From positions 1 through 6,897 of the forward strand of contig WQXD01000198.1 of NCBI GenBank assembly GCA_009785015.1: a DNA stretch of 6,897 nt, read 5' to 3'. This stretch comes from Oscillospiraceae bacterium. GTDB lineage: Bacteria > Bacillota_A > Clostridia > Oscillospirales > WRJC01. The translations under genes were made by a program, and so were the position numbers. Shown here in pieces: positions 1 to 5,452 of this stretch; position 1 is the stretch's first letter; the number at the start of each line of letters is the position of its first letter. The notes under the pieces are model-generated. The model worked only from the letters and a program-made list of their open reading frames with translations, did not search any database and was not told the origin of the DNA.

Positions 1-138
1 CATTCCACCACCGTGGACGCCATGGAGCGCGCGATACCCGACCTGATCGCTTCGGGATATACGCTGCTCACAGTCTCGGAGATGTTCGGCGCCATGGAAC
101 CGGGGCTCGTATATTACAACAGGGGATATTGGAAATGA
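1..138 (+). CDS. Polysaccharide deacetylase (NodB-type), C-terminal end only
   Basis: Only the last 45 codons and the TGA stop lie in the window. The reading frame starts with HSTTVDAMERAIPDLIASGY, followed by TLLTVSEMF. This is the closing motif of the NodB/carbohydrate esterase 4 fold: a His-rich strand, then T-x-x-A-(x)-P-x-L-I-x-x-G-Y and a hydrophobic T-V-S-E strand. Such enzymes remove N- or O-acetyl groups from peptidoglycan, chitin-like or capsular polysaccharides, usually outside the cell. The catalytic Asp and zinc-binding residues lie upstream of the window, so activity and substrate cannot be judged. The stop codon overlaps the start of the SGNH hydrolase gene (ATGA), which implies translational coupling and a shared job on an acylated surface polymer. 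The family call is fairly secure; the exact substrate is unknown. Confidence 0.78.
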   Translation, partial: HSTTVDAMERAIPDLIASGYTLLTVSEMFGAMEPGLVYYNRGYWK

Positions 139-1286: not shown

Positions 1287-1913
1287 TTAAAATTTGGATA
1301 TCTTTTGTTTTTTGACTGCGGCAAGTACCGTGACCACCGCGGGGGCGGCCACCAAGGTGATAGCCGTTTCAGGGAGCATATACTGCGCGTTATACACCAA
1401 GGAATAAACCCACGCGCCCACCGTATTCACATATTCGTTCCAATTGCCCGCTTTCGTTATCGCGTACCATATCATAATCCCGGCGGCCACATGCGACATA
1501 TACCGCAGAACGCAAGCCAAAAGCACCGCAGCAAAAGCGAAAGCGATTTTTTTGCCGCGCTTTTTGGCTTTATCGATGGCAGAGCAAAAAAATCCCGCCG
1601 CCCCGAGCGCCGTAAAGGCAATAATGTAGTCGAGCAGCGCGCAGATTATCATACTTCGCGCTCCCGCCACCCCCCAGGCCGACAGCTTGGAAGCATCGAA
1701 CATAAATTGGGTCAGCGAATACGCAAACGCCGTTCCGAATCCCCAGGCGCACCCGTGCCTGAGCCCGATTATTATCACCGGCGCCATGGAAAACAAAGTC
1801 ACCGCCCCGCCCAAAGGGGCCTTGTAGATGACTGCATATTCAGACAGCACCGCCGCGAGCGCGATCATCACCGCGCACTCGGCCAAAACGCCCAGACTTT
1901 TTTGATTTCTCAC
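1287..1913 (-). CDS. thiT: ThiT, thiamin-specific substrate-binding (S) subunit of an ECF transporter
   Basis: This gene encodes a hydrophobic 208-residue protein with about six membrane segments. It matches the ThiT/YuaJ family: LAECAVMIALAAVLSEY near the N-terminus, the APLGGAVTLFSMAPVIIIG block (32-50), LLDYIIAF (93-100), RYMSHVAAGIMIW (137-149) and YSLVYNAQYMLPE (170-182). The Tyr/Asn/Trp/His positions in the last three blocks are where the family binds thiamin. ThiT captures thiamin and works with a shared energy-coupling module (EcfT plus two ATPases), which is not in this window. I chose GTG 1913 because it has AAGGA ten bases upstream. The in-frame GTG at 1964 would give 225 residues, but it lies inside the riboswitch terminator and has no ribosome site. 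The gene has its own promoter and TPP riboswitch, which agrees with the assignment. Its stop is 3 bp from the stop of the convergent SGNH gene. Confidence 0.93.
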   Translation of the reverse strand: MRNQKSLGVLAECAVMIALAAVLSEYAVIYKAPLGGAVTLFSMAPVIIIGLRHGCAWGFGTAFAYSLTQFMFDASKLSAWGVAGARSMIICALLDYIIAFTALGAAGFFCSAIDKAKKRGKKIAFAFAAVLLACVLRYMSHVAAGIMIWYAITKAGNWNEYVNTVGAWVYSLVYNAQYMLPETAITLVAAPAVVTVLAAVKKQKISKF

Positions 1914-1941
1914 AAAAACACCATCCTTAGAAATAATTTGG

Positions 1942-1972
1942 AAAAACCGCCTGAAATAATCCACGCGGTTTT
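1942..1972 (-). terminator. Intrinsic terminator of the thiT TPP riboswitch (expression platform)
   Basis: In the RNA sense the 5' arm AAAACCGC (1972-1965) pairs with GCGGUUUU (1950-1943). After a G-G mismatch an inner stem UGGA/UUCA closes a UUAU loop, and the stem runs into five U residues. It lies between the aptamer and the thiT ribosome site, as expected for transcriptional attenuation when TPP is bound. The U tract is short, and four of its residues can pair with the A tract, so strength is uncertain. Confidence 0.8.
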
Positions 1973-1982
1973 CGAAATATTC

Positions 1983-2013
1983 AAGGACGGCTCAAAATCC
2001 AAGCCAAATCCTT
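1983..2013 (-). other. Linker hairpin between TPP aptamer and terminator
   Basis: In the RNA sense AAGGA pairs with UCCUU, and inside it GGCUU pairs with GAGCC (last pair U-G) around a GGAUUUU loop. There is a three-base bulge on one side and a one-base bulge on the other. There is no U tract, so it is not itself a terminator. It may shorten the distance between the aptamer and the terminator. Function is inferred from position only. Confidence 0.5.
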
Positions 2014-2021
2014 ATCTGAAC

Positions 2022-2114
2022 ATAATCTCCCTACGTTGGCATTACCCATATCAGGTTATTAAGGGACAGCAGTTTTCAAAACTGGCATCTCAGCCTTTCG
2101 GCGCCCCCGATTAT
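2022..2114 (-). promoter_or_regulatory. TPP (thiamin pyrophosphate) riboswitch aptamer, THI-box
   Basis: Read on the minus strand, the conserved THI-box elements occur in order. They are P1 5' strand AUAAUC (2114-2109), GGGGGCGCC, then GGCUGAGAUGCC containing the invariant CUGAGA. A small accessory stem CAGUU-UUGA-AACUG follows, then CCC closing P2, ACCUGAUAUGGGUAAUGCCA (P4/P5, pyrophosphate sensor), ACGUAGGGA, and finally P1 3' strand GAUUAU (2027-2022), perfectly complementary to the 5' strand. The accessory stem after CUGAGA also occurs in some Bacillus THI boxes. The gene downstream is thiT, so the switch should shut off thiamin uptake when TPP is plentiful. The expression platform is the terminator at 1942-1972, so control is by premature transcription termination. 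Confidence 0.95.
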
Positions 2115-2128
2115 TTATTTGCGGTTTT
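2109..2128 (-). promoter_or_regulatory. Candidate antiterminator strand at the 5' end of the thiT transcript
   Basis: With the start site predicted near 2130, the transcript opens with AAAACCGC (2128-2121), AAAU, then AAAUAAUC (2116-2109). AAAACCGC is identical to the 5' arm of the terminator and complements its 3' arm (1950-1943). AAAUAAUC is perfectly complementary to GAUUAUUU in the terminator top (1961-1954). Together they make two 8-bp helices around a 4x3 internal loop. AUAAUC is also the P1 5' strand of the aptamer, so TPP binding would remove it from the alternative pairing. The complementarity is seen directly; its use as the antiterminator is inferred. Confidence 0.6.
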
Positions 2129-2136
2129 ATGTTTTC

Positions 2137-4370: not shown

Positions 4371-4386
4371 TATATCCGCCATCGGC

Positions 4387-4425
4387 AAAACCGCGGAAGC
4401 GCGCGCTTCCGCGGTTTTTATTTTT
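4387..4425 (+). terminator. Strong intrinsic terminator after rpsI, probably bidirectional
   Basis: AAAACCGCGGAAGC (4387-4400) and its perfect complement (4405-4418) form a 14-bp stem around the loop GCGC, followed by a T-rich tract TTTTTATTTTT. Read on the other strand the hairpin is followed by UUUU, so it may also end the convergent alpha/beta hydrolase transcript, whose stop codon (4424-4426) overlaps the T-rich tract. Confidence 0.95.
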
Positions 4426-5452
4426 ATAAATTTCCCAAAAAAAACTCTACTCCTTCGTCCCCTTTGTCAAATTCGTGAACGCCGTCGAAAATCTTTATTT
4501 TCAGCGAATCGGCACAGTTTTCATCTTCGGCGTATTGCCGCAGCCTTTTTATATCCTCCCCGGCGGATTCCGGATCGAACAATTCGTCTTTTGCGGCTAT
4601 TTCTATATACAATTTTCTCGGAAGCACCAAATAACCCACTTCGGCGTCAAAAAAAGCGTTCGCCTGGTTGAAGTATGACCAGTCGTCGTTGAGGTATTTC
4701 AGGCGGTCGTTGAACCAGCACGACGAAAGCGCCGCTTTTATCCTCACATCCGCCGCCGCGGTGTGCAGCGCGTACATTCCGCCATAAGATACCCCGAGCA
4801 TTCCGATCCTGTTTTCATCGACGTCGTCGAGAGCCGAAAAATAATCGATGGACCGCATTATACAGTAAATTTCCAGGGCGGTTATGCTCCCGCCGTACAT
4901 TTTCAGTTTTTTGTCGATTGCGAGCCTGTTGTAATTTGCCCCCTTGTAAACATCCTGCCCCCATAAAAGCAGCTGCGGGGCGAAAACTTTTATGCCCTTT
5001 CGTATAATTCTCTGAACCAGATGATTATAGTTCGCCGAATCGAATATAAGCCCGCCGATGATCTCGGGAGTGCCAAGTCCCCCATGCTGCGCAATCACGA
5101 GCGCGTCTTTGCCTTTCGGGTTTTCCTTCGGCTCATACAATATCCCGTAAAACCAGAAATCCGGCATGACCTCCAATTGGAAGCGCGTCATGATCATATT
5201 GTCGTATTCGCCCAGATGTTCCTTTTTCGCGGTTATCCCGGTTTTTTCGTAACATTTGGAATTGTTGGCGCATGGCCCGCACGTGAGGGGATATCCAAGC
5301 ATACCGATATATTTTCCGCGCAGCGCTTCTTTGTCTTTCTCCTTGATCAAACGGTTATTCTTCGAGCCATATTTCAGATTTTCGAGCAGATTCTCTATAC
5401 TGCCCACGTATTCGTTCCGTTGCCTTAAATTTTCAACTTCAAAACCTGACAT
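4424..5452 (-). CDS. Alpha/beta hydrolase (dienelactone hydrolase / acetyl-xylan-esterase-like), N-terminal Cys cluster
   Basis: A 342-residue protein with no signal peptide, so probably cytoplasmic. Residues 1-95 are a family-atypical N-terminal region with TCGPCANNSKC (cysteines 58, 61 and 67). The hydrolase core follows: YGILYEP (102-108), ALVIAQHGGLG with an oxyanion-type HGG at 123-125, and a helical insert around 130-190. The nucleophile elbow is GVSYGG with Ser222; Asp289 or Asp293 in KDELFDP and His326 in DGVHEF complete a triad. The family cleaves esters, lactones or deacylates sugars; no substrate can be named. The ATG follows GGAAGGGAAAG by about ten bases. It is divergent from a polyol dehydrogenase operon with interlocked promoters, which suggests linked regulation, and it ends at the rpsI terminator. 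The alpha/beta-hydrolase call is firm, the subfamily is tentative. Confidence 0.85.
   Translation of the reverse strand: MSGFEVENLRQRNEYVGSIENLLENLKYGSKNNRLIKEKDKEALRGKYIGMLGYPLTCGPCANNSKCYEKTGITAKKEHLGEYDNMIMTRFQLEVMPDFWFYGILYEPKENPKGKDALVIAQHGGLGTPEIIGGLIFDSANYNHLVQRIIRKGIKVFAPQLLLWGQDVYKGANYNRLAIDKKLKMYGGSITALEIYCIMRSIDYFSALDDVDENRIGMLGVSYGGMYALHTAAADVRIKAALSSCWFNDRLKYLNDDWSYFNQANAFFDAEVGYLVLPRKLYIEIAAKDELFDPESAGEDIKRLRQYAEDENCADSLKIKIFDGVHEFDKGDEGVEFFLGNL

Follow-up and report, generated by a model that had tools for sequence, protein, structure and literature searches.

A thiT thiamine pyrophosphate riboswitch with a putative antiterminator at the front end of its predicted transcript

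The gene thiT in a 6,897-nucleotide stretch of Oscillospiraceae bacterium DNA (contig WQXD01000198.1; the whole stretch is referred to below as the window) is preceded by a thiamine pyrophosphate (TPP) aptamer and a terminator-like hairpin. We consider it likely that these elements constitute a transcription-attenuating OFF riboswitch, in which TPP would promote termination and the antiterminator is formed by the promoter-proximal leader together with the 5′ strand of the aptamer helix P1. The leader has two mutually exclusive sets of pairings, leader and terminator coevolve in related loci, and the design contrasts with the one seen phylum-wide. With somewhat less confidence, we also favour a broader interpretation, in which the switching strand has been swapped in a share of the thiT TPP switches of one bacterial order: the first ~20 nucleotides (nt) of the RNA, ending in the P1 5′ strand, would capture the terminator loop through a toehold and then the terminator 3′ arm, enclosing the aptamer, while the bound ligand would hide the toehold, the swap being tied to both gene and clade.

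Mutually exclusive pairings in the thiT leader

All features of the leader lie on the minus strand. The promoter TTGACA-17-TACAAT (2165-2137) matches 11 of the 12 consensus letters and has a TG preceding its −10 box; by the usual −10 spacing, transcription is predicted to start near 2130. The TPP aptamer (RF00059, 2118-2011) covers the full model, 1-105, and its sequence and structure together score 63.2 bits, above the curated gathering score of 54.3. It is located 5′ of a thiamine gene, as expected of this family, since the product encoded downstream is ThiT (PF09515). The P1 helix is formed by ATAATC (2114-2109) and GATTAT (2027-2022). A linker hairpin between aptamer and terminator occupies 2014-1982 (−12.2 kcal/mol, z −2.17, matched by 7 of 200 shuffles) and is followed by the terminator hairpin (1973-1942), which is composed of the 5′ arm GAAAACCGC (1973-1965), an inner stem and loop, and the 3′ arm GCGGTTTTT (1950-1942) with five terminal T, beyond which come two C. 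This hairpin is stable (−17.3 kcal/mol, z −4.93), and none of 200 shuffles is as good.

Two blocks of the leader are complementary to the terminator. The first, AAAACCGC (2128-2121), would correspond to approximately nt 3-10 of the predicted transcript; it duplicates the terminator 5′ arm and, acting as a clamp, pairs with the part GCGGTTTT of the 3′ arm (1950-1943). The second, the toehold AAATAATC (2116-2109), includes the P1 5′ strand and pairs with the terminator-loop block GATTATTT (1961-1954), which in turn duplicates the P1 3′ strand. The result is two helices of 8 base pairs each, separated by the internal loop AAAT/CAG. The letters 2114-2109 hence have two alternative partners, the P1 3′ strand at 2027-2022 and the rival terminator-loop block at 1961-1954. 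An earlier reading of the window from its sequence alone (the sequence-only reading) had described these pieces, their coordinates, the two helices and the internal loop, and all of them are present as it described.

Of 5000 dinucleotide-shuffled leaders, 5 pair with the terminator strand as well as the window's leader does; for pieces of 22 nt from both strands of the window, self-overlapping pieces counted, the figure is 116 of 13,750 (0.8%). A scan of the 110-nt leader in the window alone does not find the leader pairing significant (z −1.1, p 0.149), so that the strong support for it comes from relatives. The same scan, which relies on shuffled leaders, is low-powered in general, reaching p ≤0.01 in only 4 of 101 loci.

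How could these pairings operate a switch? When TPP is scarce, P1 would open, and the polymerase would expose the terminator loop GAUUAUUU, which would pair with AAAUAAUC at the P1 5′ strand. The helix would then extend into the terminator 3′ arm via AAAACCGC, near the 5′ end of the transcript, enclosing the entire aptamer and blocking the terminator, so that thiT would be transcribed. When TPP is bound, P1 would retain its 5′ strand, the loop block would be left without a partner and the terminator would close. The kinetic order of events is presumably such that the ON state is set up before the 3′ arm emerges and is held during the passage of the polymerase.

Coevolution of leader and terminator in relatives

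Of 91 ThiT loci found in relatives we took 80, and 58 of these carry a TPP aptamer above the gathering score. Together with the window and 133 loci chosen from among the best-scoring TPP matches listed for the order of one relative's genome (L001) and the family of another's (L004), they make up 192 TPP loci, which, being drawn from best-scoring matches, do not constitute a random sample. The named neighbours of the sampled loci include Oscillospiraceae, Ruminococcus, other Clostridia and a few others, and we infer that the sampled group is the order Oscillospirales. The gene downstream is thiT in 172 of the 192 loci. A terminator-like hairpin is present in 183 loci, which form 137 non-redundant clusters, 118 of them thiT. 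In the swap test, the duplex energy of each leader, taken from 15 nt upstream of the aptamer through the end of the P1 5′ strand, was computed with the terminator of every locus, and own combinations were compared with swapped ones after removal of row and column means. As a control for shared ancestry, the 118 thiT loci exchanged partners only with their nearest relatives, as judged by the aptamer core.

We observe that leaders fit their own terminators. Against the terminator loop and 3′ arm the mean residual z over the 137 clusters is −1.08, with 35 clusters below −2 (5.4 expected), a result matched in none of 10,000 permutations; against the terminator 5′ arm and loop there is no signal (z 0.00, p 0.51). 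The covariation with 1961-1943, whose absence in relatives would have refuted the sequence-only reading, is there for both helices separately: the clamp against the 3′ arm alone and the P1 5′ strand against the terminator loop alone (28 of 137 below z −2, 5.8 expected) are each significant, with 0 of 10,000 permutations. The P1 5′ strand falls below z −2 with its own P1 partner in 14 of the 137 clusters (5.7 expected), and its covariation with the terminator loop is thus at least as visible as that with its partner in the aptamer.

Swaps between nearest relatives give the same picture. The own pair wins in 79, loses in 13 and ties in 1 of 93 thiT comparisons (p 7.8e-12), with a mean gain of 2.5 kcal/mol, while the leader against the terminator 5′ arm is better in 48 and worse in 44 (p 0.62). 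The idea arose from the window and the relatives L001-L007, and we therefore consider separately a later set of 79 thiT clusters without any locus up to L080. In this set the mean z is −1.35 and 23 clusters fall below −2 (3.1 expected; 0 of 10,000 permutations), although it is not fully blind, the leader stretch having been chosen after a 110-nt scan that contained 53 of the 133 later loci. Against the terminator 5′ arm from which the loop is excluded, leaders of the later set show no signal (p 0.45 and 0.25).

Exact matches are likewise over-represented. The complement of the P1 5′ 6-mer occurs in the terminator loop or 3′ arm of 16 of the 118 thiT loci (2.2 expected; the maximum in 10,000 permutations is 8), and the 16 matches comprise 8 distinct 6-mers; in the phylum sample described below, such matches number 0 of 83. 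The control, which combines the terminator 5′ arm with the loop, is high as well (14 of 118, 1.9 expected), owing to the loop that it contains. A duplex energy of −11 or better is reached by 54 of the 118 own combinations (46%) vs 13.6% of swapped ones, an excess of about one third of the loci. A sizeable share of the thiT switches of this order, roughly a third, uses the P1 5′ strand and not the 3′ strand.

The textbook design, in which the P1 3′ strand pairs with the terminator 5′ arm, dominates elsewhere. The phylum sample consists of 90 TPP loci from a search of 61 genomes, unfiltered for redundancy and possibly including members of the order, and 83 of these loci have a hairpin. Here the textbook pairing has a mean z of −0.96, with 17 of 83 loci below −2 (3.3 expected; 0 of 10,000 permutations), so the method detects this design where it is present; the result also agrees with the sequence-only reading, which had placed the usual antiterminator strand on the 3′ side of the aptamer. 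The leader pairing in the same sample yields 7 of 83 below z −2 (3.0 expected, p 0.059). Among the 13 phylum thiT loci, 11 of which have a hairpin, the textbook pairing is significant (p 3e-4) and the leader pairing has p 0.07; the gene alone, therefore, does not account for the difference. Within the order, the 19 TPP loci without thiT show no significant leader pairing (p 0.14) and a marginal textbook pairing (p 0.02). In the order's flavin mononucleotide (FMN) riboswitches (28 of 30 loci) the leader design is not seen with a −15..10 leader (p 0.21), although a weak signal for it appears with a 60-nt leader (p 0.0115), and their textbook pairing has p 0.085. As these loci display neither design clearly, the FMN control is a weak one. 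Within the limits of such small control sets, the leader design is tied to thiT in this group.

Does the pairing strand occupy the front end of the RNA in relatives as well? Promoters with at least 9 of 12 consensus letters precede 109 of the 118 thiT loci, including 52 of the 54 loci at −11 or better. In these 52 the −10 box is most often separated from the pairing strand by 7 nt (9 of 52); a gap of 1-13 nt is found in 39 of 52 likely positives vs 22 of 57 others, the rest of the others being scattered. Approximately 16 of the 118 loci would reach −11 or better by chance, so the 52 must include false positives; in a few loci the gap is long, with a maximum of 71 nt. With starts predicted from promoters, the claim of the sequence-only reading that the antiterminator is the very 5′ end of the transcript holds as a tendency and does not extend to all loci. 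Pairing, coevolution and the modal gap of 7 nt together point to an antiterminator strand 5′ of the aptamer and near the predicted start.

Fourteen loci were inspected by eye. The arrangement recurs with different letters in L001, L003, L004 and L006, the duplex of L004 comprising 18 pairs with one bulge, and is weak in L005. L007, one of the loci with a long gap, has ACCGCA right after the −10 box, about 75 nt from the aptamer, with a stem-loop-like stretch in between (2707-2806); a second copy of the antiterminator strand lies beside its P1, and it is this copy that the program chose for the duplex, although the front block is present. No such block is apparent in L008 and the remaining loci inspected by eye. 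As a separate observation, pairs of TPP aptamers approximately 150 nt apart occur at G009:C83 10632-10891, G307:C25 69931-70181, G406:C7 43878-44139 and G606:C1 2240046-2240300, and are probably tandem riboswitches.

Folding energies and alternative explanations

Folding of the growing RNA supports the first step of the proposed switch: for an RNA that ends at 1953, folding without constraints yields the leader:loop helix (−43.7 kcal/mol vs −41.6 kcal/mol with P1 forced). A number of other observations weigh against the antitermination reading. At ends 1950 and 1949, the toehold state is less stable, by 3.4 and 2.9 kcal/mol, respectively, than a structure in which the loop and the early 3′ arm pair with the aptamer core. 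Ligand-free folding without constraints yields the terminator at ends 1947, 1943, 1941 and 1925; the toehold state is behind the unconstrained fold by 0.1-0.3 kcal/mol at 1947-1943, and the terminator-containing fold then beats the antiterminator by 1.5 kcal/mol at 1941 and 3.0 kcal/mol at 1925. Even P1 combined with the terminator is preferred to the antiterminator, by 0.6 kcal/mol (1941) and 1.2 kcal/mol (1925). The two regulatory states are thus predicted to be close in energy, and the finished ligand-free leader is not predicted to favour antitermination, so that reaching and holding the ON state would have to depend on kinetics. The terminator itself has a short U run in the window, five long before the CC and partly within the stem, and a simple terminator scan of the window listed no terminator at the thiT leader. 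Both helices are found in one duplex by a fixed rule in only 35 of the 118 thiT loci (6.2 expected by swapping). In L002 (2700-2760) the front block is kept, but the second helix is built from letters upstream of P1, which makes the link to ligand binding unclear at that locus. Finally, the textbook pairing leaves traces in the order: the P1 3′ strand against the terminator 5′ arm and loop gives z −0.20 with 12 of 137 clusters below −2 (5.3 expected, p 0.01), and against the 5′ arm alone in the later thiT loci p 0.0012.

These traces, along with the strength of the textbook design in the phylum sample, are what recommends the first alternative, namely that the P1 3′ strand and the letters following it pair with the terminator 5′ arm and the match to the leader is incidental. 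We regard it as improbable. The pairing is unremarkable in the window (−10.4 kcal/mol, z −0.6, p 0.249), and swaps between nearest relatives in the order's thiT loci favour it in 52 and disfavour it in 41 of 93 comparisons (p 0.077), vs p 7.8e-12 for the leader pairing. The P1 3′ strand against the terminator loop and 3′ arm gives z −0.18 over the order (p 0.02).

The second alternative accepts the leader:terminator pairing and assigns it another end, such as translation or protection of the 5′ end or of the terminated RNA from decay, without antitermination. The pairing does join the extreme 5′ nucleotides of the RNA to the end created by termination, the terminator does stay closed in ligand-free folding, and at end 1925 the leader pairs with letters that immediately precede the ribosome-binding site. 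The choice of strands speaks otherwise: by taking the P1 5′ strand and the terminator loop, the pairing excludes both P1 and the terminator, as an antiterminator needs to, and covariation of the P1 5′ strand is no less visible with the loop than with its P1 partner. This explanation, too, seems unlikely to us.

A mere coincidence of A/T-rich, low-complexity letters with a recurring ACCGC block, which the window-only scan and the 0.8% of equally well pairing pieces would allow, is hardly credible and was rejected, since swaps preserve strand composition and nearest-relative swaps allow for ancestry, and the signal persists in the 137 clusters, in the nearest-relative comparisons and in the later loci.

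Known systems and the surrounding locus

An antiterminator strand at the front end of the RNA has a precedent in the thiC TPP riboswitch of Neisseria meningitidis, with a different stated partner. According to its published description (PMC7237195), this riboswitch is turned OFF by intrinsic termination, and primer extension was used to map its start. Altering nt 9-12 of the 5′ untranslated region (UTR), which were assigned to the antiterminator, rendered reporter expression in E. coli undetectable. A GAGA motif is found at nt 40-43 in both systems, if +1 of the window is 2130. N. meningitidis differs in gene (thiC) and in phylum; its antiterminator is described as blocking the terminator 5′ branch, whereas the strand in the window takes the terminator loop and 3′ arm, and the leader shows no signal with the 5′ arm in any of our comparisons (p 0.51, 0.62, 0.45 and 0.25). 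The sequence-only reading had called a promoter-proximal strand enclosing the aptamer unusual, which is mostly right, with the published 5′-proximal mutation of Neisseria thiC as the qualification.

With textbook OFF riboswitches that switch through the P1 3′ strand, the window shares the aptamer class and the competition between P1 and the antiterminator; unlike them, it uses the opposite P1 strand and captures the opposite terminator arm. The Lactococcus lactis riboswitch RSthiT controls the same gene, and its aptamer begins at UTR nt 12. A U stretch is proposed there as a part of the terminator, its mutation leading to constitutive expression; the term antiterminator is absent from that paper, and no switching strand is described in the text available to us (PMC8862789). 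Covariation of P1, terminator and antiterminator has likewise been used as evidence for alternative structures in purine riboswitches, a different class, in a study that does not contain the term TPP (PMC3723493).

The portions available of a 2007 survey of expression platforms state that most riboswitches reuse P1 bases in the alternative structure and that sequence was taken only from the aptamer 5′ end onward (PMC2258182), so that a platform with its key strand upstream of the aptamer would be missed. A 2024 review presents TPP switches as strand exchange, and its available text does not include the 5′-leader arrangement (PMC10907184). Nor is such a design described in the accessible parts of work on B. 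subtilis tenA (PMC3280964), S. aureus (PMC2766623) and L. lactis thiT (PMC8862789), or on contiguous riboswitches (PMC12452182), termination mapping (PMC12121620) and a corrinoid riboswitch (PMC10653944). A literature search judged by titles and the beginnings of abstracts, with several older THI-element papers outside its reach, recognised no paper as describing the design.

The leader design makes riboswitch function depend on where precisely transcription begins, and offers a test of how nascent RNA captures the terminator arm that is made last. Since the same gene uses the other strand outside the order, albeit in a small sample, an evolutionary swap of the switching strand could be studied here. 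If our reading is true, the first letters of the message appear to keep the vitamin B1 importer on under vitamin scarcity in some uncultured gut bacteria.

The controlled gene, thiT (1287..1913, minus strand), encodes 208 amino acids, the same length as in the database entry for the window's own ThiT protein, from a likely GTG start at 1913-1911 preceded by AAGGA at 1928-1924. Translated from 1919, its product matches PF09515 with E 7.6e-26 and 91.7 bits (cut-off 25.8) and is, by this family assignment, the thiamine-binding component of an energy-coupling factor transporter. Besides the window's own, the nearest ThiT proteins in the database have 90%, 77% and 76% identity, the last of them named Oscillospiraceae; the nearest ThiT locus in a genome is L001, at 69%. 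A further AAATTATTTC stretch (1930-1939, minus strand) lies 3′ of the terminator and immediately precedes the ribosome-binding site; when the RNA is folded to 1925 without constraints, the leader pairs with approximately 1937-1931 of this stretch, making a link to translation possible. Convergent with thiT, positions 129-1283 of the plus strand encode a GDSL-type hydrolase that carries a hydrophobic segment at its N terminus and has a long proline-rich region. A strong terminator-like inverted repeat, AAAACCGCGGAAGCGCGCGCTTCCGCGGTTTTTATTTTT, which includes the letters of AAAACCGC, is located 3′ of the S9 gene at 4380-4430 on the plus strand.
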